Positions 4,645-48,910 of a DNA stretch of 54,202 nt are shown here, piece after piece. The notes under the pieces are model-generated. The model searched no databases, was not told the origin of the DNA, and saw nothing but the letters and a program-made list of their open reading frames with translations. Location: positions 1 to 54,202 of the forward strand of contig NZ_LASA01000055.1 of NCBI RefSeq assembly GCF_001562015.1, read 5' to 3'. Each line of letters opens with the position of its first letter. Position 1 is the stretch's first letter. This DNA comes from Endozoicomonas arenosclerae. Lineage in GTDB: Bacteria > Pseudomonadota > Gammaproteobacteria > Pseudomonadales > Endozoicomonadaceae. Both the position numbers and the translations under genes were made by a program.

Positions 4645-5466
4645 ATGTTGACTCTGTCAAAGGAAGATAGGCGCCAGCTAAAAGAGAACGGCTACCTGGT
4701 GATTCCTGATGCCGTTCCTCTGACACTTTGTAATGATGCTGCCAGCCTGATTGAACAGTTTCTCAATGTTGATCCTGGCAATTCTAAAAGCTGGTATGAC
4801 AAGGATCTGGGTTACAATGGCATTGTTCCTGTTCACCAGCATCAAAGTGTCTGGAATATAAGACAGCATCCCAATATCCACTCACTCTTTTCTCAACTAC
4901 TGGGTACCGAAAAGCTTTGGGTCCGCCTCGACAGGCTTTCTTTCAAACCCCCTTCTCTTAATCCGGAGATTGATCGACCCAAACGCCATATCCACCTGGA
5001 CTTTCCGGTTGAACAACTCACGTCCCTGAGACTGCAGGGCATTCTATATCTCACAGACACCCAAAAAGATCAGGGTGCTTTCTGCTGTGTTCCCAGCCTT
5101 TATAAAAACGAGAAAGTGCTCAAGAATCGCAAAAGTCTCTGGTTCGATAATGAGGAGCTGAGCCAGAACCCTATTGAATCAATTGAAGGCAAAGCGGGCA
5201 CATTAATCATTTGGGACTCTGGATTGCCACACTCCGGAGGACTCAATACATCCGACCTTCCAAGAATGGCGCTCTATGTTTCCATGTTCCCGGCTGGCGC
5301 AGAAGAAACCAGTGAAGAGCGTATACGACTCTGGCAGGAAAACCGTGCACCGGAAAAGTGGCGAGGCCTGCCTTATCAACAAGACCCGGAACCCGGAAAG
5401 CCAGCCAATCTGAGTGATCTGGGGAAAAAGTTACTGGGTCTGGAAGATTACTCTGCCGACTGCTGA
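4645..5466 (+). CDS. Phytanoyl-CoA dioxygenase (PhyH) family oxygenase
   Basis: A 273-aa Fe(II)/2-oxoglutarate-dependent oxygenase of the PhyH group. The N-terminal LKENGYLVIPDAVP is the usual family opening. The iron triad is visible as H117-x-D119 in HIHLDFP and H196 in WDSGLPHSGG, and R207 is well placed to bind 2-oxoglutarate. It is the usual length for the family. Such enzymes hydroxylate lipids, amino acids, antibiotics or small osmolytes; the substrate cannot be deduced here. GAGG lies eight bases before the ATG. Its last 19 bases overlap the convergent amidase gene. Confidence 0.85.
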   Translation: MLTLSKEDRRQLKENGYLVIPDAVPLTLCNDAASLIEQFLNVDPGNSKSWYDKDLGYNGIVPVHQHQSVWNIRQHPNIHSLFSQLLGTEKLWVRLDRLSFKPPSLNPEIDRPKRHIHLDFPVEQLTSLRLQGILYLTDTQKDQGAFCCVPSLYKNEKVLKNRKSLWFDNEELSQNPIESIEGKAGTLIIWDSGLPHSGGLNTSDLPRMALYVSMFPAGAEETSEERIRLWQENRAPEKWRGLPYQQDPEPGKPANLSDLGKKLLGLEDYSADC

Positions 5467-6107
5467 ATCAACCTGACCGAAGTTTCCGTCAACTCACTGA
5501 CCCTTTGCCAGAAGAGTGTTCGCTGCTCTCTATCAGCAGGTTCAAGTGGCTGTAGCTTTTCAAGGGAAGCCTGAAGTTCCTTCGGGCAAGCAGGCTCTCG
5601 AACGGGGTGTGATTGATTTGGGAACAGATCAGTGAACAGCCGGTTCCAATCAAAGCAACAACCCGGGTCAGCCTTACCCCTAAAACCAGCTATCTGCTCA
5701 TGGCCCAAAATCCGCTCTGGATCACTTAACTTGGGGTAATGTTGCTGCAACTGCTGAATAACCTGTTGCAACGCCAGATACTGCTCATCCGTGAATGAAA
5801 AGATGTTGCCATTGAAGTTAACCAGCTCAATACCAATGGCAAAATCATTAAAAGCTTCCTTTTCCTGCCAGCGGCTGACACCTGCATGCCAGGCCCTGTG
5901 AGCCGTACCATTCAGGCAGCTGACCAGCTCATAGACCGTTCCATCCAGATCTATCACCAGATGGGCTGAAACCCCATACTCAGCACTCGAAAATATGTCC
6001 AGCGTGCCCTGAAGATCGACGGCTGTGTAATGCAAGATCAGGAATTCTACAGGTATTTCCCTGGAATCGAAGTTGGGACTGGGATGGGAATGGATGCTCA
6101 GGGACAT
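5448..6107 (-). CDS. N-acetylmuramoyl-L-alanine amidase, AmpD/AmiD-like
   Basis: A 219-aa Amidase_2 zinc enzyme cleaving the bond between N-acetylmuramic acid and L-alanine in peptidoglycan or its anhydro fragments. Zinc ligands fit H26 (LILHYTAVD), H136 (LGHEQIAGF) and D147 (KADPG). The core segments VSAHLVIDLDGTVYE and GIELVNFNG are typical. There is no signal peptide or lipobox, so a cytosolic AmpD-like recycling role is more likely than periplasmic AmiD, although an extra ~50-residue C-terminal tail is not standard for AmpD. Confidence 0.85.
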   Translation of the reverse strand: MSLSIHSHPSPNFDSREIPVEFLILHYTAVDLQGTLDIFSSAEYGVSAHLVIDLDGTVYELVSCLNGTAHRAWHAGVSRWQEKEAFNDFAIGIELVNFNGNIFSFTDEQYLALQQVIQQLQQHYPKLSDPERILGHEQIAGFRGKADPGCCFDWNRLFTDLFPNQSHPVREPACPKELQASLEKLQPLEPADREQRTLFWQRVSELTETSVRLIQQSAE

Positions 6108-6210
6108 TGCAATGCCTGTAAAAGTTCAGCCAATAAGGATCTTACGTCGGAACTTTTAGCCTAACCAGCCCTCTAACTAGAGATCAAGGACGAATTTTAA
6201 GGAGTTCATT

Positions 6211-7068
6211 ATGCAAGGAATAGCAACGTCTCCCTCACTCTCATCTCTCAGCTCATCATACTCTGATAGCATCGAAGGTTCTGGTCGCTGGTCTCTGCCA
6301 CCTGAAGTTAATCGCTTTCTGGCACTGAACAGGCAGTATCCTAATTGCCCTTATGATGCTACTCCAATCATCAGTAGACATATCGATCAGGAAGCATCTG
6401 CCTGCTCTCAATTGCTTCTCCGTATGATTCACGCTACTTCAGAGGACGAAATGAGCAATGAGCTGTTTTTCATGCTCCTTGACGCCATGCCGGACGGTGC
6501 CATTCTTCAGTTGATCAATTGCCATGACTGTTATGAAGATGACGTTCTGACCAAAAAGAAAGTCAAAATCCTGCAAGATTACATGACGACCAGAAAGACC
6601 CGGCTGAATACTCGCAGCCAGGCATATGATGATGTAAGACGATTTGCGCAAATGGCCAGGTTCCAGCCCAACAGAAGCTTCAATGCCTCCGTCATTACCC
6701 AACGCTGGAGTGATTCATCTGTAGACGCCAAGACTCTTCCAGAGCTGGTAACCATGATGATCCGAAGCAGTTCAGCCTATACCCTTCAAACTCCGATCTT
6801 CACTCAGTTTCTTAATGCCATGCCTGAAGACGCTATCAAGGCTTGCCTGCAGTTCTGTATGCGCGATGGAAGGCACTTTGTACCAGCAAATAATATCGAG
6901 ATTCTGCAGGACTATTTCACTAAGAGAATAAGAAAAGAGATAGATTTGACACAGGACAGTGGCACAAAAACGCCTGAGTCCGGTTATGACAGTGGTAACG
7001 AAAGCAAAAAGCCATCTCAGCAAGAGTCCGAGTTTTATAACCAGATCATGGAAAACATGGAGCTCTGA
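6211..7068 (+). CDS. Unrecognised protein with two internal repeats
   Basis: A 285-aa protein with no family that I recognise. It has a Ser-rich N-terminus (about residues 8-24) and a polar C-terminal tail (SGYDSGNES). Two related helical segments are visible: residues ~67-131 and ~178-242, sharing LLDAMPDGAI / FLNAMPEDAI and KILQDYMTTRKTR / EILQDYFTKRIRK. A strong AAGGAG lies seven bases before the ATG. No signal peptide or membrane helix is seen. Ser-rich disordered ends around helical repeats are common among secreted effectors and scaffolds, but nothing here proves secretion. Confidence 0.6.
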   Translation: MQGIATSPSLSSLSSSYSDSIEGSGRWSLPPEVNRFLALNRQYPNCPYDATPIISRHIDQEASACSQLLLRMIHATSEDEMSNELFFMLLDAMPDGAILQLINCHDCYEDDVLTKKKVKILQDYMTTRKTRLNTRSQAYDDVRRFAQMARFQPNRSFNASVITQRWSDSSVDAKTLPELVTMMIRSSSAYTLQTPIFTQFLNAMPEDAIKACLQFCMRDGRHFVPANNIEILQDYFTKRIRKEIDLTQDSGTKTPESGYDSGNESKKPSQQESEFYNQIMENMEL

Positions 7069-7140
7069 GTTTCATTTTGGCCATGGCCAGCTTTTCAATT
7101 CCATGTATCATTGCCCACAGTGATTTTTGGGAGACAGAAG

Positions 7141-7551
7141 ATGGCCAAAGGCTTACTGAAACACCAGGAACGACAGGCAGCCCTGAACCTGTTGGGCAAG
7201 GATCTTGCCCGCAGGGCCAGCTCCAAGTGTGAGCTATGCGAAGCATCAGGCGTTCCTCTGAAAGCCTACGAAGTAGCTCCGGTTCCTGAAGAACCCGATT
7301 TTGAACACTGCCTGATGACCTGCGAAACCTGCAGGGACCAACTCAGCCTTTTCGAAAAGAAACCCGCCAAAATGAACGCTGACCACTGGCGCTGTCTGGG
7401 CAAAACAGTCTGGAGCCAAGTGCCGGCCGCTCAGGTGATGTCCGTAAGAATCCTACGTCAGATGTCCGAGCAATACCCCTGGGCTGCGGAAACTCTTGAA
7501 AATGTGTTCCTTGAGCCTGAAATAGAAAACTGGATTCAAGAGACAGACTGA
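7141..7551 (+). CDS. phnA: PhnA-type zinc-ribbon protein
   Basis: A 136-aa protein of the proteobacterial PhnA group. The N-terminal zinc ribbon shows two CxxC pairs, C30-ELC-C33 and C61-ETC-C64, separated by the typical YEVAPVPEEPD segment. It is followed by the conserved DHWRCLGKTVWSQVPAAQVM stretch. The name comes from the phosphonate operon, but no phosphonate genes are near and the cellular role of this group is poorly defined. The ATG at 7141 has GGGAG seven bases upstream; a TTG at 7111 lacks support. A sigma28-like site for motY begins just after its stop. Confidence 0.85.
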   Translation: MAKGLLKHQERQAALNLLGKDLARRASSKCELCEASGVPLKAYEVAPVPEEPDFEHCLMTCETCRDQLSLFEKKPAKMNADHWRCLGKTVWSQVPAAQVMSVRILRQMSEQYPWAAETLENVFLEPEIENWIQETD

Positions 7552-13884: not shown

Positions 13885-15266
13885 ACCATCTGGGCAACAA
13901 GTCCGAAAACAGACGTCAGGAAGCCCCTGTCGTCGATATCATGCGACAGAAACTGCAAAAGATTCCTGTGGCTCGTGTTTTTGGTCGCCTTACCCGAATG
14001 AAGGGCCTGATATTGGAAGCTGGAGGTTGTGTGCTGGCCACTGGGCAGCGCTGTTTTATCGAAGCCCGCTCTGGTGCCAGGATAGAGGCTGAAGTCGTTG
14101 GCTTTTCAGATAATGTTCACTACCTGATGCCACTGACCCGTACCGAAGGGCTCAGCCCAGGAGACCGGGTCATTCCTATGGATCAGGACAACACTATTCC
14201 TGCAGGTGACGCCTTGCTGGGAAGAGTCATCAATGGCTTGGGCGAACCCATTGATGGACTGCCTCTCACTACCAAGCAACGGATCAGTCTTTCAGCCAAC
14301 CCTATCAATCCGCTGAACCGTAAACCTGTGAACGAACCTCTGGATGTTGGAGTGCGCTCCATCAATGGTCTTCTGACTGTCGGTAAAGGCCAGAGAATGG
14401 GCTTGTTTGCGGGCAGTGGCGTCGGTAAAAGCGTTCTGTTGGGAATGATGACTCGAAATACTACCGCAGACGTCACAATCGTTGGACTTATAGGCGAGCG
14501 TGGTCGTGAAGTAAGAGAATTTATCGAACAGACTCTGGGTCCGGAAGGTTTAAAAAATGCAGTTGTCGTTGCCGCCCCTGCTGATGAGTCCCCTGTCCTG
14601 CGTCTGAGAGCAGCAAAAGTTTGCCACAGACTGGCGGAACATTTTCGAGACCAGGGCAAGAGTGTTCTTTTGCTCATGGATTCACTGACCCGCTTTGCCC
14701 AGGCTCAACGCGAAATTTCTTTATCTGTCGGAGAGCCGCCCGCAACTCGGGGCTACCCACCTTCTGTCTTCAGCCAGATTTCCGAGCTGCTTGAGCGAGC
14801 GGGTAATGGATCAGACAACCAGGGTTCCATCACTGCAATTTATACCGTCCTTATGGAAGCAGACGATCTTCAGGACCCGGTGGCCGATGCATCAAGAGCC
14901 ATTCTTGATGGGCACATTGTTCTCTCTCGTACTCTGGCGGACAGCGGCCTTTACCCTGCTGTCGATATTGAAGCTTCCATCAGTCGCATAATGCCCAATG
15001 TGGTCACTGAACAACAACAGGCTTCGGCACGACTGTTGAAGTCTCTCTATTCCCGCTACAGCCAGTCGAGAGACTTAATGGCCGTTGGCGCTTACCAAAG
15101 GGGAACCGATCCGGAACTGGATCGCGCCATTGACTCTTATCCGGACATTCACCGCTTTCTGCAACAAGGCATGTATGAGCAGATCCCCCTGGACACCTGC
15201 ATCAGCCAGCTGCTTCAGCTCTGGCCTGCTGCAATGCCTGAGGCCATTGGAGGGCAAGTGTCATGA
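13881..15266 (+). CDS. fliI: FliI, flagellar export ATPase
   Basis: A 461-aa F1-beta-like ATPase that energises and chaperones flagellar export. Walker A is AGSGVGKS (about 177-184), followed by GLIGERGREVREF; Walker B is in VLLLMDSLTRFAQAQREI, with the family signature PPATRGYPPSVFSQ. All catalytic features are intact. Start and stop overlap fliH and fliJ by four bases each, indicating translational coupling. Confidence 0.96.
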   Translation: MNHLGNKSENRRQEAPVVDIMRQKLQKIPVARVFGRLTRMKGLILEAGGCVLATGQRCFIEARSGARIEAEVVGFSDNVHYLMPLTRTEGLSPGDRVIPMDQDNTIPAGDALLGRVINGLGEPIDGLPLTTKQRISLSANPINPLNRKPVNEPLDVGVRSINGLLTVGKGQRMGLFAGSGVGKSVLLGMMTRNTTADVTIVGLIGERGREVREFIEQTLGPEGLKNAVVVAAPADESPVLRLRAAKVCHRLAEHFRDQGKSVLLLMDSLTRFAQAQREISLSVGEPPATRGYPPSVFSQISELLERAGNGSDNQGSITAIYTVLMEADDLQDPVADASRAILDGHIVLSRTLADSGLYPAVDIEASISRIMPNVVTEQQQASARLLKSLYSRYSQSRDLMAVGAYQRGTDPELDRAIDSYPDIHRFLQQGMYEQIPLDTCISQLLQLWPAAMPEAIGGQVS

Positions 15267-15694
15267 CCTCGGTTAAATTACTGGCTCGCTGGCTCAAGAT
15301 GCAACAGCTGAGATATGACAGAGCTCTGGCTCAGGCCATGCAAGCCAGAAAAGAGTTTCAGAAACACCAGCAGCAACTGGATTACCTGCAGCAGGTACAG
15401 TCTGACTATGACTGTAAGGAAGGCACTACGATCAAAAGCGTGAATCTGGCTGGACGCAAAAACTTCCAGCAGTTTGTACAGAGCATGTCAGATAAACAAA
15501 GCATTCAGGTTCAGCAGTTTGAAGAGAAATGGAAGGGCCTTGCTGAAAAGCTCGCAGCTGAGAAAAGAAAGCTGCAGTCCATTGAAAAACTGCTGGATCG
15601 CCAGATGAAAAAAGAACAGAAGAAAGCCGACCGTGCCGAAGCCAAGGCATTGGATGAATGGCAGGCCCACAGGCACACTGAGAAAACGGACTAG
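15263..15694 (+). CDS. fliJ: FliJ, export chaperone/ATPase stalk
   Basis: A 143-aa charged coiled-coil protein that enters the FliI ring like the gamma subunit of F1 and couples it to FlhA. Sequence similarity in this family is low, so the call rests on length, two long helices rich in Lys/Gln/Glu, and its place directly after fliI with a four-base overlap. Three bases separate its stop from the start of the 1269-aa gene. Confidence 0.9.
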   Translation: MTSVKLLARWLKMQQLRYDRALAQAMQARKEFQKHQQQLDYLQQVQSDYDCKEGTTIKSVNLAGRKNFQQFVQSMSDKQSIQVQQFEEKWKGLAEKLAAEKRKLQSIEKLLDRQMKKEQKKADRAEAKALDEWQAHRHTEKTD

Positions 15695-15697
15695 ATC

Positions 15698-18600
15698 ATG
15701 GACTCACTATTTCCCAGCCGGGATGGCACTCCATTACCCTCGCTTAGCACCGAAGAGTCTCCTTTGGCTTCGCTTCAATCCATGCGTTTGGGCAATGAAG
15801 TGGTCTTCACTCCAAGGAAAGAGGGGACCTTCAAGGGTTATTCTGTGTGGGTTCACGAAGGCACCGAAAAACAGCCATTCATAGAAAATGAAGTACTGAT
15901 AGAAAACCGACGGCCTATTCCTAACAGGACGCTGTCAGAAAGAACAGTGATCGCCGAAAAATGCGATGACCGGTCCTGGTATACCCATTATTTCTTCGGG
16001 AGATTCATCACCTGGCTGACGGAACCCAAAGAGTATCAAACTTACCTGAATGAAGTGGATGACTATAGAACGGCCTGCACCAAGGATAATATTTCTATCG
16101 CTGAAAAGTTGCGCATGCTGTCCTCTCTTTCCAGACACTGTAAAAGCGTCGTTCACTCTCTGGAAAACAAACAGCGTGGCTGGATGACGTTTACTGACCT
16201 GGATCAGGCCCGACTGGATACCTTCCGGGAAGAGCTAAAGAAACTGGAACACGAAACCTGGTACGTCATGGGTCTGGAAGACCCTGAAAAAGGCACCATT
16301 TATACCTCTGAAGATGAGCAATCTTCAAAAGAAAATTATGCCAGCGGTCAGTCCGCCACCGTAGCCAGAGTCAAGTACAAAAATGGCTTTGAAGCCGTAT
16401 TCAAACCAACCAGTCACCAGCATACTGTTCGATCCAATGCTGCAGACAGGTTCGGTCTGCTGGAAACCCAAGGCGATATCAAACCCATTTTTACCGAACC
16501 CAACTCCGGTTTTGAACCACACCAGCGGCAGGATCTTAAAACATTCAAAGAGGTAGCTGCCTTTCATGCACTGGATAGTATTTTAGGCACAAATGTCACC
16601 CCCAGAACCCGGTGGACGCACGGTGAGGAAACGGACGTTCTCACTGAGGACCTGGCCGTAGACAGTTACAACATGTTCGAGCAAGAAGCTGAGTATGTTT
16701 CGGACGATGCCCAGGCTCGCCTCAGACCCAAGCTGCTGGAGATCTACAAAAATAATGTCGCGGGCCATGAGCTTGAACTACAGGTTTCTCACGAGTTCCC
16801 AATGGGGCAAGCCCCCTCAGAAGAAGAGAGAGCACTTTTTCATCTGGAGGGTGAGCTGGTTCCACTGCAAAAAGAGGATGGATCTCAAGTTCTGATTGCC
16901 TGGAGTAATCGTTTTCCTGAAGGTTACACTCCCACTCAGGAAGAACTGGAGAAAATGCATCTGCATGGGATGTTACGCATCCGAAAGCTGGTTCCCAGAA
17001 TCGTTCCCATGTCGCCTTCTTCCAAAACCATGCAGACCTGCATGTCCAATCTTCAGTTGTTGGACTTCCTGATGGGCACCAGCACTCTTCAACCCAGAAA
17101 ATTTAAATTCTATGAAACCGAGGACGAACTTGGATTCTCTGACTGGAGACCGGAAGCGTCCAACACTAAACAGCAATTCTTCAAGGCTAACTTTGCGGTC
17201 AGTATTCCAAAACGAATCGACCGTGATACGGCTCAGCGTATTCTGAATACCTCTGCTGAAGCCATCACTGAAATAGCACAAGCTCACCAGCTGTCTGATC
17301 AACAGGCAGCCTTCATGCGAGAGCGCTTTGAACATCTGAAAGCCATCATTAATGCCACGATGAGAAACGTAGATATCCCAGAGGAAAGCAGCCAACACAT
17401 CCAGGGTAAGCTCTTTATCATTGATCACTGGGATCAGGACACACTCAATGACTCTGCCATGGAGAAAGGCAGCTATATGAGTGAATATGTTTTAAAACCC
17501 AGAATGGAGATCCAGCCTTTAGAACCTCTTTCCGCCGCTCAGGCAAAACTGGCCAACAGAGCTGTCCTATTCTGCGAGCTGGACAGTCTGATGGGGATAA
17601 ATCTGACGCCTCCGACCTGGTATTCCGAGCATAAGGGTGAAAATGGTTACTGTCAGGAGTTTGTCCAGGAGGCCAGAGAGCTGGTAACCGAAAAACCTGT
17701 ACCTTTACCTGAGCATCAACAGGTAAATTACAGAGATCAAGTTCCAGATATCGTCAATGGAGAAGCCAAGCCCAAAGGGTATGAAATAAGTCCTGAGCAT
17801 CAACCAGAAAATATTCAGGCACTCTCTGAACAGGAACTGCTTCAACTCCATGATCAAGGTCACCTCAAAGTGACCCAGCCTAAAACGGTAGACATATTAC
17901 CTCTGAACTCCTCAGCCCCTGAGCTGCAAAAATGCATGGCTAACAGTCAGTTACTCGACTTTATTACGGGTAGTGTTGACCGCAACCCAGGTAATTTCCT
18001 CTATGTGAAACAGCTTCGAGAAGATGGGTCTGAGGTCTGGGTGCCCAGAATGATCGACAATGATCTGAGTTTTTTTGGCCGACTAGTCAGCTCAAACCCC
18101 ATTGAGATGAGTATCCGAGACGTAAACAGTCAGCACGCCTCTATCGGCTTTCCGACCCAGATAGATTTGGAAACAGCCAGACATATTGTGGAAGTGGACT
18201 CAAAAGAGTTGATTCTTCTGGCTCAGGTTCATCAACTCCACATAACAGAAATAGCGGCATTGGTAGACCGTTTCCAGGCTTTGAAAGAAAGCCTTCAAGC
18301 GTTATTAGATGGAAGAGATATTCCGTTCGAACATAGAAAATACCTTAAGGGACCCATCAGGCTGATTGACCAATGGGACTTACGCTCATACAGCGAGGCT
18401 GCGGGAGACACTAACAGCTATATCCGAAGGCATATTATTGATCGTCGCCTGAATGAGCTCTGCAACCTGAGAGACACTAACCCCGTATTAATGGTGAAAA
18501 CACTGCATGAATTACTACGAACCCTCGGCCCAAAAACCCTGGCTCACCGGTTAGTTCAATATAACCCTACCGATATTGACGCAATATTCGATTTGTACTC

Positions 18601-19507
18601 CCAAAGCTATCAGGTTAAAAGTTTGGCCGATGCAAACCAGGTCACTCACCTTGTCAGAGAATACTATCAGGGCCGGTACGACCTTGAGCAGCAGAGATAT
18701 CAAAATGAACAAGCCTCCTATCCAGAGCTCGAAGCACAATGGCAAAAAGACAAAGAACAGTGGGACAGAGGCATAGAACAATGGAAAAGGGAAAAAGGCC
18801 ATTGGAGTGAAGATGAACTAAAAGCAAAAACAAAAAAGCCTCCCCCGCCTCGTTACCCAGCTATACCGGTGCCCGGAAAAACGCTTACAAGTCCTGTAGA
18901 ACTGGAACGACTAAAAGCCAAACTCATTCACCAGATGTTGGGGAAAAACTGCTCGGCACTCTCTATTGGCCACATGATTTACTGGACACAAGTCAATGGC
19001 CTGCAGAGCTACGAGGTGTTTCATTCCCTGATGACCCAGCTTCAGTCTCGACTGCAAAAGGAGAAGCCACACCAACACAGACAGCCATCATTTGAATTCA
19101 GAAAGGCCTTCCCGGAACTCTGTGGCCCCGACACCCCTAAAGCTCGAAGAGCCATGCTAGAGTTCTGCTTCTCTACATTCAGCGATCAGAATGCCCCTGA
19201 AGTACCTATAGCCATGATGCGTTTGTGGGATAGATTGCAACAGACTATCAACGACAATCCTGAAGCATACTGGGCAGTGACTAACAGCGAAGAGTTTATG
19301 GAAGCTCTTGATAGCTTAACAAAGACCCCAGGTCTTCTCGAGACGCTCACTGAACGCCTTAAAGATCAGGAAATGGGAACCTGTACCAATGTGCTCAGAG
19401 GCCAGCTTCTCCCACAGAGGGTGCCGGGAGCGCCTGCCCGTGATGCAGAAAAAGAGCAAGAGGCAGTAACATTATTAGCGAAATGCTTTAACCCGGATCT
19501 GCGTTGA
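15698..19507 (+). CDS. Giant protein with duplicated PI4-kinase-like domain
   Basis: A 1269-aa protein starting three bases after fliJ, so part of the fliEFGHIJ operon; not a known flagellar component. It shows kinase-like motifs of the PI3K/PI4K/FAM20 kind: a lysine motif VKYKNGFEAVFKPTS (K236, compare AVFKP of type II PI4-kinases), a catalytic-loop-like D761-RNPG-N766, and a metal-site-like I786-D787-N788-D789. Residues ~285-603 and ~612-918 are two diverged copies of one unit (LDSILGTNVTPRT / LDSLMGINLTPPT; QLLDFLMGTSTLQ / QLLDFITGSVDRN). Copy 1 has the lysine but lost the DRxxxN loop; copy 2 keeps that loop but lacks an evident lysine lobe. A charged Trp/Gln/Glu/Lys-rich segment (~995-1050), a Pro-rich link and a helical C-terminus follow. 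No signal peptide or membrane helix. Kinase activity, and any role in or export by the flagellum, are inference. Confidence 0.7.
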   Translation: MDSLFPSRDGTPLPSLSTEESPLASLQSMRLGNEVVFTPRKEGTFKGYSVWVHEGTEKQPFIENEVLIENRRPIPNRTLSERTVIAEKCDDRSWYTHYFFGRFITWLTEPKEYQTYLNEVDDYRTACTKDNISIAEKLRMLSSLSRHCKSVVHSLENKQRGWMTFTDLDQARLDTFREELKKLEHETWYVMGLEDPEKGTIYTSEDEQSSKENYASGQSATVARVKYKNGFEAVFKPTSHQHTVRSNAADRFGLLETQGDIKPIFTEPNSGFEPHQRQDLKTFKEVAAFHALDSILGTNVTPRTRWTHGEETDVLTEDLAVDSYNMFEQEAEYVSDDAQARLRPKLLEIYKNNVAGHELELQVSHEFPMGQAPSEEERALFHLEGELVPLQKEDGSQVLIAWSNRFPEGYTPTQEELEKMHLHGMLRIRKLVPRIVPMSPSSKTMQTCMSNLQLLDFLMGTSTLQPRKFKFYETEDELGFSDWRPEASNTKQQFFKANFAVSIPKRIDRDTAQRILNTSAEAITEIAQAHQLSDQQAAFMRERFEHLKAIINATMRNVDIPEESSQHIQGKLFIIDHWDQDTLNDSAMEKGSYMSEYVLKPRMEIQPLEPLSAAQAKLANRAVLFCELDSLMGINLTPPTWYSEHKGENGYCQEFVQEARELVTEKPVPLPEHQQVNYRDQVPDIVNGEAKPKGYEISPEHQPENIQALSEQELLQLHDQGHLKVTQPKTVDILPLNSSAPELQKCMANSQLLDFITGSVDRNPGNFLYVKQLREDGSEVWVPRMIDNDLSFFGRLVSSNPIEMSIRDVNSQHASIGFPTQIDLETARHIVEVDSKELILLAQVHQLHITEIAALVDRFQALKESLQALLDGRDIPFEHRKYLKGPIRLIDQWDLRSYSEAAGDTNSYIRRHIIDRRLNELCNLRDTNPVLMVKTLHELLRTLGPKTLAHRLVQYNPTDIDAIFDLYSQSYQVKSLADANQVTHLVREYYQGRYDLEQQRYQNEQASYPELEAQWQKDKEQWDRGIEQWKREKGHWSEDELKAKTKKPPPPRYPAIPVPGKTLTSPVELERLKAKLIHQMLGKNCSALSIGHMIYWTQVNGLQSYEVFHSLMTQLQSRLQKEKPHQHRQPSFEFRKAFPELCGPDTPKARRAMLEFCFSTFSDQNAPEVPIAMMRLWDRLQQTINDNPEAYWAVTNSEEFMEALDSLTKTPGLLETLTERLKDQEMGTCTNVLRGQLLPQRVPGAPARDAEKEQEAVTLLAKCFNPDLR

Positions 19508-19532: not shown

Positions 19533-19567
19533 TGAATGCCTGAGAGATTCAAACCTTCAGGCATTCA
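19533..19567. terminator. Hairpin between convergent genes
   Basis: An 11-bp perfect stem (TGAATGCCTGA / TCAGGCATTCA) with a 12-13-base loop, between the 1269-aa gene and flgN and reaching the flgN stop. No T-run follows on either strand, so it may act as an RNA 3' end or a weak bidirectional terminator. Confidence 0.4.
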
Positions 19568-20033
19568 GCCCCATCTGAGCAGTCTTTACAGCGACGGGAA
19601 CACCTTTTGAGGAATAGGTGGACAGTCGATAATAATGATCGTCAATCATGCCAATCAAACGCTGTGTCACTGTCCCCAGACGAGCCTGCACCCGTCCGTT
19701 CAACTTGTTTAACTCCTGACAATGACGAATCCCTGACTCCAGTCTCGACCAGCTGGCCATAGCGGTTTCTATTTCTTCCTCTGGCAGTGTCGACAATAAC
19801 TGCTTCATACCTGAGGTATCATTGGAAAAGCCCAGCTCTTCCACCAGTTTGATTCTGAGCTCGGTATTCTGTCGGATCTTATTTAAAAGCCTGGACTGCT
19901 CTTTGATACTGAGCTCCAGTCTGGAAATATCGCGGGATAACAACTGATAGTGAATCTGGTTCAGCAGATTCTCCAGCTCGATGAAAAAGTGGCAGGCTTC
20001 GCTGATGGTATTGAGAACAAGTGCGGCACTCAT
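19557..20033 (-). CDS. flgN: FlgN, chaperone for FlgK and FlgL
   Basis: A 158-aa, largely helical cytosolic chaperone that keeps the hook-filament junction proteins export-competent. Typical FlgN elements include FFIELENLLNQIHYQLLSRD near the N-terminus and the C-terminal amphipathic helix followed by STYSSKG. It lies downstream of flgM and converges on the 1269-aa gene. Low-similarity family, but the flgM-flgN pairing is conserved. Confidence 0.88.
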   Translation of the reverse strand: MSAALVLNTISEACHFFIELENLLNQIHYQLLSRDISRLELSIKEQSRLLNKIRQNTELRIKLVEELGFSNDTSGMKQLLSTLPEEEIETAMASWSRLESGIRHCQELNKLNGRVQARLGTVTQRLIGMIDDHYYRLSTYSSKGVPVAVKTAQMGLNA

Positions 20034-35054: not shown

Positions 35055-36266
35055 TCAGGCAAAAGTATCCAGAAAACCGGAAGTTACAGTCGTGTAAGGA
35101 CCTGATGTCAGGTTGCCGCTTTCATCAGTACTCTCATCGACCATGAGATTTGAAACTGAAGCAGGGGGAGGGGAGGCCAGTTCGTCCTTTTGTCTACCGG
35201 ATTCCTTATCCGAAGAAACATCGACATTGACCAGATCCAGATCATGGCCCGCCATGGCCATGCGAAGTCGATCAATCTGTTGCAGGATCAGCTCCCGAAC
35301 GGCATTACCGGAAGCCTGGAAGTTTACAGAAACCTTATCACCATCAATATTCAACAGTAATTCAAGCTTGCCCAACTCAGGAGGATCGAGACGAATAACC
35401 GCTGTTTTCTGATCACGACTGGCCAGCCAGGCCAGACGATCTCCCATGGCATTGGGAAAGTCCTGAAACTCCTTAAGACGCATCGTCATCGAAGGTTGTG
35501 GTTCAACCTGCAGAGCGGCTGGCATCGTCATAGATTTAGGCTCTACCACCTGCAGACTCAAACTGGGGGTACTCACAGATGTTGCTGAATTACTCTGTGT
35601 ATTAAATGTCTGAAGTTGGGATTCTACCTTGGTGGAAAGTTCTGGTTTGAGGGGCGCTTCAGCAACTTTTATCTCCCGAGCTAACAATTCAGGTTTGAGT
35701 TCTCTGCTTTCCTGAATGGGCATCTCTTTCTGGACAGGCTTCCCATCAGTCATTGAGAGTTCTCTTAATGCCCTGAATTCTTCTGACTTCTGCAATGGTT
35801 GTTGCTCTGAAAGTAATTCAGCATCCTTGTTCAAAACTGATTGTTCAGCCGCTCTGTTTGCAACAGCAGTGACTTCCAAGGGCTGCTGCTTCAGTTTTAG
35901 AGATGAATTATCGACTTGAACTGAAGGGTAATTTTGCGCCAGAACTTGCAGGTCAGACTGACCTTTTGGAAGAGGTTTTGGAACCTGATCAATGGCCAAA
36001 GCGGCTATCTCAGGAGGTAAGTGATGTAAAACTTCAGTGTCTGCCTGGAGCTGAGCATAAGGCTCAGTATTCAGAGCTGACTGAGCAACGTCTTTTAATG
36101 GCTGACTCGATAACAAATTCAGTAGCAGATCAAATGACTCTCCACCCGTAGTCGTTGACTGAAGGTCAGGTAAGTCTGGCAGAGACTGTCCATTAGGATG
36201 GATCGAAGCATTGCCCGATGATGAAGGCAGTAAATGAGAGAAATCCAGAACCGGTAAACTTTCCAT
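35055..36266 (-). CDS. fliK: FliK (LafE), hook-length control protein
   Basis: A 403-aa exported ruler that ends hook growth by switching FlhB specificity. The N-terminal ~270 residues are low-complexity Gln/Ser/Glu/Pro-rich. The conserved C-terminal domain reads AVIRLDPPELGKLELLLNID, then VSVNFQASGNAVRELILQQI. Its ATG overlaps the fliT-like stop by one base. Confidence 0.92.
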   Translation of the reverse strand: MESLPVLDFSHLLPSSSGNASIHPNGQSLPDLPDLQSTTTGGESFDLLLNLLSSQPLKDVAQSALNTEPYAQLQADTEVLHHLPPEIAALAIDQVPKPLPKGQSDLQVLAQNYPSVQVDNSSLKLKQQPLEVTAVANRAAEQSVLNKDAELLSEQQPLQKSEEFRALRELSMTDGKPVQKEMPIQESRELKPELLAREIKVAEAPLKPELSTKVESQLQTFNTQSNSATSVSTPSLSLQVVEPKSMTMPAALQVEPQPSMTMRLKEFQDFPNAMGDRLAWLASRDQKTAVIRLDPPELGKLELLLNIDGDKVSVNFQASGNAVRELILQQIDRLRMAMAGHDLDLVNVDVSSDKESGRQKDELASPPPASVSNLMVDESTDESGNLTSGPYTTVTSGFLDTFA

Positions 36267-36583
36267 CAGCCTCGACTCTTATCACTCTGCTGATAGTTAT
36301 CAATGGCTTCCTGACGTCGCCGACTGGCCATTAACTGTTCCTGTATATGATCTCGCTCAAGCTGGCAGGCAGAAATCATTTCCTGATAAAGCATCTGAAG
36401 ATCCTGCAGCAGTCGTTTAACCTCTTCAGAAGGAGCAGAGCCATTATCCAGAGCTTCTTCTATCGCCTGACGAGCTTCGGAATCCAGAGCTTCCAGTGAA
36501 GACCAATCCTTGTTCCGGGTTGCCTCACCCAGATTATGGATAGACTCCTGAAGCTTTTCTTTCAATATGTCAGGATTTTTCAT
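36266..36583 (-). CDS. fliT: FliT/LafD-like flagellar chaperone
   Basis: A 105-aa helical protein at the lafD/fliT position between fliS and fliK. FliT binds the filament cap FliD. The segment NLGEATRNKDWSSLEALDSE resembles the N-terminal helices of FliT-like proteins; similarity is weak and the call rests mainly on position, size and helix content. ATG 36583 has AGGGG six bases upstream; ATG 36601 would add six residues. Both overlap the end of fliS. Confidence 0.75.
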   Translation of the reverse strand: MKNPDILKEKLQESIHNLGEATRNKDWSSLEALDSEARQAIEEALDNGSAPSEEVKRLLQDLQMLYQEMISACQLERDHIQEQLMASRRRQEAIDNYQQSDKSRG

Positions 36584-36977
36584 CAGGAGCCCCTGATCCA
36601 TCAGTTATGGCATCCCAGGCTGACTTGATATCGCCCATCAGACGAATAACTTCTTCCAGCTTGTCACTATCATCTTGAGCATTGGCCTGAATCAGCCCCT
36701 GCATTGAATATTGGTAAAGCGCACGAAGGTTGGCGGACATTTCTCCACCGGCCTGCATATCAATAGAGCTGTTAAGGGTAATGATGATATCAAGGGCTTT
36801 ATCAATACACTGGGCTTTCTCGCTACGCTGTTTGCGCTCCATGAATCCTCGAGCTTGATGAAGGTCTTTCATGAGGGCACTGAAAAGCAATTGAACCATT
36901 CTCTGAGGGGTTGCAACTTCAGCAGCGATGCCTCCCTGAACCTTGCTGTAGGCATTCACTGCAGCCGAATTTGCCAT
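36570..36977 (-). CDS. fliS: FliS (LafC), flagellin chaperone
   Basis: A 135-aa four-helix chaperone that binds the flagellin C-terminus before export. The N-terminus AVNAYSKVQGGIAAEVATPQ and RMVQLLFSALMKDLHQARGF are characteristic, as is the helix IITLNSSIDMQAGGEMSANL. Follows fliD by about 40 bases. Confidence 0.94.
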   Translation of the reverse strand: MANSAAVNAYSKVQGGIAAEVATPQRMVQLLFSALMKDLHQARGFMERKQRSEKAQCIDKALDIIITLNSSIDMQAGGEMSANLRALYQYSMQGLIQANAQDDSDKLEEVIRLMGDIKSAWDAITDGSGAPDEKS

Positions 36978-48466: not shown

Positions 48467-48910
48467 ATGAGAAACGTTTCATTGCCCCCACATCTGAAAA
48501 GTTTTCTTATCAAAGTGTGGCTTGCATGCCTGACGGGCTTCACAACGGCTGCTGTTGCAGAAGCCGAACCAGAAAAAGCCGCAGACCTCAGTCTGACGCA
48601 AGTCATCGCGCCGCTATTCTTTGTGATTTTGCTGATTTTTGCCCTGGCATGGATTGTCAAAAAGCTGAATATCGGCACACCGGCTATAGGGCAGGGAATA
48701 AAAGTGATCTCCAGCATCCCGGTATCCAGTCAGGCCAGAGTCTGCCTGATTCGAGTGGGTGAAAAAGATATTCTGCTGGGCGTCACTAACCAGCAAGTCA
48801 ACCTGATCCAAACATTTGACGAATCGCCGATACCGCCTGACAACAAAGAAAATCAGCACGATTTTGCTGATCAATTCAGGAGTTTATTAAAAGGCAGGAA
48901 CTCAAAGTGA
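48467..48910 (+). CDS. fliO: FliO, export-gate assembly protein
   Basis: A 147-aa membrane protein that helps FliP assemble. It has an N-terminal hydrophobic leader ([19 protein letters not shown]), the single membrane helix [20 protein letters not shown], then a small cytosolic domain ([32 protein letters not shown]). It overlaps the fliP GTG start by four bases. Confidence 0.92.

Follow-up and report, generated by a model that had tools for sequence, protein, structure and literature searches.

A predicted PI4KII/FAM20-like kinase with a decayed extra C-lobe, probably a passenger of a flagellar cluster in Endozoicomonas

In the flagellar cluster of Endozoicomonas arenosclerae a gene for a 1269-amino-acid (aa) protein directly follows fliJ, which raises the question of whether it belongs to the flagellar machinery or has a job of its own. 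It was analysed within a window of 54,202 nucleotides (nt), contig NZ_LASA01000055.1 of assembly GCF_001562015.1, to which all coordinates refer. The gene is an ATG-started open reading frame (ORF) at 15698..19507 (+), found free of internal stops in a frame check, and just 3 nt separate its ATG from the fliJ stop at 15694, confirming the placement given by an earlier sequence-only reading; it ends 50 nt short of flgN, with which it is convergent. Both fliJ (15263..15694, +) and flgN (19557..20033, -) were recognised by family profile matches.

That reading had singled out three kinase-like motifs, all of which stand at the residues it named: AVFKP, holding K236; the catalytic loop DRNPGN at residues 761–766 (17978..17995, +); and IDND at residues 786–789 (18053..18064, +), whose metal-binding role is taken from the predicted fold. 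The lysine (codon 16403–16405) and a conserved G217, both in invariant columns of two alignments, belong to an N-lobe spanning residues 199–253 (16292..16456, +). Among six aligned relatives, K236, D761, R762, N763, N766, I786, D787 and N788 are invariant, and the possibility that homologues might lack the key residues is not borne out, as four orthologues retain K236, D761, N766 and D787. In a 25-sequence alignment of the wider family, where the window protein is represented by its second C-lobe only, no variation is seen in the loop residues D, R and N or in the aspartate of IDN, and F-K, the loop G and the asparagine of IDN are conserved at the level of at least 90%.

What kind of kinase this might be was approached through profiles and predicted structures. 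Alone, the window protein has no convincing match in Pfam, NCBIfam or PDB sequences, the hits it does have in Pfam or PDB, nitrile hydratase and DnaJ-type entries among them, being weak and unsupported. It was likewise unmatched by the Pfam PI3_PI4_kinase profile (PF00454, curated cut-off 27.1 bits), for which no protein of its own genome exceeded the cut-off, and the best score in a sister family was 23.3 bits. The fold list of the window-protein model, led by helical proteins over residues 103–195, lends weak support. The fold search that the sequence-only reading had proposed does predict a kinase, rather than an unrelated fold, when the core of an orthologue is used: PI4KII heads the list, with FAM20 close behind, and the catalytic domain is on this basis predicted to adopt the PI4KII fold. 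The ATP lysine, the catalytic aspartate and asparagine, and the metal-binding aspartate of a type II phosphatidylinositol 4-kinase (PI4-kinase) have counterparts in K236, D761, N766 and D787, the placement of the lysine depending on the alignment. The suggested kinship with type II PI4-kinases or FAM20-type atypical kinases is therefore supported by the predicted structures, and the gene most likely encodes an atypical kinase, a PI4KII/FAM20-like variant of the protein-kinase fold.

A narrower proposal, that the protein phosphorylates phosphatidylinositol at position 4 in particular and is exported so as to remodel membranes of the host, draws on PI4KII providing the best fold matches, but appears rather doubtful given how closely FAM20, which acts on proteins or sugars, follows in the list. 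In addition, CCPCC, the palmitoylation motif of type II PI4-kinases, is absent from the window protein and eight relatives. Lipid, protein and sugar substrates are indistinguishable from the fold. A HipA/CtkA-type kinase that works within the cell, having a bacterial target and no host or flagellar tie, would sit less well with the same list, in which PI4KII and FAM20 score higher, and is unlikely. Differences from the known systems are considerable. Identity to PI4KII alpha and beta is 11–15%, and the window protein differs from them in lacking CCPCC, falling below the PI3_PI4_kinase cut-off and carrying an extra dead C-lobe. It differs from the FAM20 kinases (13–18% identity) in being bacterial, and from Helicobacter pylori CtkA (10–11%) in that the CtkA chain is short. 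The Legionella lipid-kinase effectors MavQ, AnkK and LepB gave a lower fold score, showed no sequence relation in the searches made and are reported to leave by type IV export. The Legionella Lmor_1975 family has an insert described as helical, whereas the insert of the window protein is a decayed C-lobe of its own.

This insert, which had gone unnoticed in the sequence-only reading, occupies residues about 273–600 (16514..17497, +) and is, judging by internal alignment, a decayed copy of the protein's own C-lobe. Compared with the live second C-lobe at residues about 609–915 (17522..18442, +), which is delimited by alignments and by PI4KII rows over 614–886 among the fold matches of the window-protein model, it gives a local score of 264 (best of 300 shuffles, 60) at 25.7% identity. 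In the columns of D761, R762, N766 and D787 the first copy has T, L, K and N when the alignment is read by eye, and its branch is the longer one, at 2.32 (second copy, 0.75); tree support for where the duplication falls is just 59. With its catalytic residues lost, the first copy appears catalytically dead, and is probably a structural or regulatory insert. Beyond the live lobe, a C-terminal region (residues 916–1269; 18443..19504, +) has no family match and aligns weakly to the four orthologues.

As the N-lobe is not repeated, the dead lobe comes between the N-lobe and the live lobe. A dead first copy means that K236 would have to pair with the live second C-lobe across the dead one, or with the live C-lobe of a second molecule. 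The choice of lysine itself varies with alignment: with the N-terminal part trimmed or omitted, MAFFT set K600, not K236, opposite the family lysine in two alignments; with that part included, K236 took this position, also in two alignments. K236 is preferred because an adjacent glycine loop and an AA..FG stretch are also conserved, and because K600 sits in the tail of the duplicated unit. The domain order also lends itself to a bleaker reading, in which the decayed C-lobe takes up the lysine sheet and the C-lobe that looks live has no N-lobe to work with, giving a dead protein, since the duplicated unit begins after the N-lobe. Conservation of K236 and the second unit while the first unit decays, together with the intact ORF, makes this quite improbable.

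The family is narrowly distributed. Matches were found in five of 57 relatives, which all belong to the same genus; one of the five is the own genome, which carries a 454-aa paralogue elsewhere that the sequence-only reading did not mention. The orthologues, of 835–884 aa, are in genomes G005, G006, G007 and G009; that of G005 has its C-terminal tail apparently cut, the match resuming in another frame with two stops. Two scans of genome contigs gave no further relative, and the own genome was the sole match of both the family profile, among 369 genomes of the class, and the 25-row profile, among 398 of the phylum. A profile of the sister family matched 17 of the 57 relatives (G006 solely via its window-family member) and one of 274 class genomes. 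The sister-family alignment used 19 loci, leaving out L098, L099 and L111 (short or split frames), L110 (a repeat of one gene), and L103 and L109 (window family). Phage or plasmid origin was rejected, there being no match in phages (P0001), in plasmids (queried with the G009 orthologue, locus L014) or in viral contigs. Near the kinase gene of that locus are three tandem ORFs of 231–249 aa with similar starts (L014:12940-15395). That the family as a whole consists of type III export effectors was also rejected, NleE matches occurring in just three of the 19 sister members; these weak matches (L100, L107, L108) lie ahead of the kinase part, the best at E 0.0014 and below cut-off.

Gene order around the orthologues, again not considered previously, ties the kinase to flagellar loci that have otherwise collapsed. 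The window and the orthologue loci share GNAT, PhyH, amidase, ZnR, kinase, FliT-like and FliO in that order. In the window, the syntenic anchors are a PhyH dioxygenase (4645..5466, +; profile match and comparison with relatives), the amidase (5448..6107, -) and a small protein called ZnR (7111..7551, +; the window copy being without family). They are joined by the FliT-like gene (36266..36601, -) and FliO (48467..48910, +). FliO adjoins the orthologue in all four loci, with FliT-like and ZnR each in three; FliO is above the Pfam cut-off, and FliT is below it in the window and L013. The rest of the flagellar cluster is absent from the locus in all four species, and the kinase occupies the same locus in all five genomes with this orthologue group. 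The homologues are therefore not scattered without flagellar linkage, an outcome that the sequence-only reading had allowed for, and FliT and FliO synteny rules out our own first reading of them as unlinked, which came from unlabelled neighbouring ORFs. FliJ and FliT labels on small ORFs in L144 and L145 had no backing from Pfam.

A kinase-free version of the collapsed locus, ending in FliO, is found in G001, G002, G003, G004 and G008, with FliT labelled in G002, G003 and G004. PhyH of G002–G004 is 76–79% identical to that of the window, against 58–59% for the kinase-bearing four, and FliO 83–86% against 58–67%; by these identities the window species appears nearer to G002–G004. If it does group with them, the kinase would have stood beside fliJ in the common ancestor, been lost with the cluster in G002–G004 and outlived the cluster in the other four, and the kinase–flagellar linkage is, from this comparison, apparently ancestral. 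Another flagellar-type FliI remains in G005 and G007; G006 and G009 have only the 44% type, and the own genome encodes a further FliI-like ATPase (44% identity), adjoined by export-gate-like ORFs (read by eye). FliO was seen in all 10 genomes of the genus, collapsed loci included, and flagellar-type FliI was not seen in G001, G006 or G009. Other genes noted at these loci are an autotransporter in G002 (L141:1126-3498, -) and, in G004, a gene of 707 aa whose zinc-finger matches are weak (L143:9997-12120, +); in the second flagellar cluster of G008, a 1272-aa ORF without Pfam family follows flhA (L147:15450-19268, +).

Clusters from other genera, chosen for their closest FliI, bear on whether the kinase is itself flagellar. 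It is not a standing part of such clusters, because fliJ directly abuts flgN in L073, L074 and L076, a different gene, of 324 aa, holds the junction in L077, and in L072 (genome G019) fliJ is followed by a 630-aa gene; a tblastn search for the kinase in 14 flagellar loci gave no match. The L077 gene (919-1893, -) is DUF2608/HAD-like and ends in CTVI, resembling a prenylation box, an ending seen in one of 277 ORFs in the scanned loci; the L072 protein (5312-7204, -) has no family and a signal-like start. In L075 (1950-6690, G029), about 4.7 kb after fliJ is A+T-rich, free of N and without a listed ORF of at least 90 aa. A bacterial motility kinase, one that stays in the cell, acts there on a flagellar protein or a regulator and is functionally part of the cluster, would fit the 3-nt spacing and the constant locus, but is rather unlikely in view of the kinase-free junctions and of its retention in four species whose locus lacks the remainder of the cluster, even though G005 and G007 keep another flagellar-type FliI. 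The same two observations leave the earlier suggestion of a flagellar component or flagellum-modifying kinase unsupported. Having outlived the cluster in relatives and being missing from related clusters, the kinase is probably a passenger rather than a flagellar part.

The history and action of such a passenger can be outlined. Its gene would have entered the cluster next to fliJ ahead of the divergence of the window species and the four relatives, and would have outlived the cluster in the latter. G+C is 0.46–0.48 across the gene, against 0.48–0.53 in the upstream fli genes. Of the cluster products, FliE, FliF, FliG and FliI exceed NCBIfam cut-offs, FliH is marginally below its best (190.9 bits, 192 needed), and FliJ is above the Pfam but below the NCBIfam cut-off. 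Transcription probably reads through from fliJ; no terminator-like site was found on the + strand from fliJ to the end of the kinase gene, in a scan of low power (seven sites against 5.9 expected from shuffling). In the protein, K236 of the N-lobe would hold ATP, D761 and N766 would form the catalytic loop, and D787 would bind metal. The conserved catalytic set, the PI4KII/FAM20-like fold, the restriction to one family and the survival without the cluster together argue against a flagellar part and for a kinase with a separate function. Bacterial effectors are known among divergent kinases of such a kind, as described in PMC9758233, and for this reason we place export into host cells foremost, via a type III apparatus or the flagellar gate and with a host lipid or protein as target. 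On balance, we lean towards a PI4KII/FAM20-like atypical kinase with an inserted dead lobe, probably a passenger of the flagellar cluster, that would be exported into host cells. A more elaborate version is highly speculative: a host-directed lipid or protein kinase, recruited to the flagellar operon, would leave via the flagellar gate, with the decayed C-lobe as a switch parting the ATP-lysine sheet from the live lobe until the host is reached, and would have been kept with FliO, and mostly FliT, after cluster loss.

Within the kinase fold, the PI4KII/FAM20 branch would gain an unnamed kinase family, found here in one bacterial family only. Its split into N-lobe, dead lobe and live lobe would provide a natural system for asking how an extra lobe is tolerated by a kinase or put to use. 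The arrival of a gene in a flagellar operon, and its survival after the flagellar genes have gone, also opens to testing the idea that clusters of this kind harbour cargo genes that serve interaction with a host.
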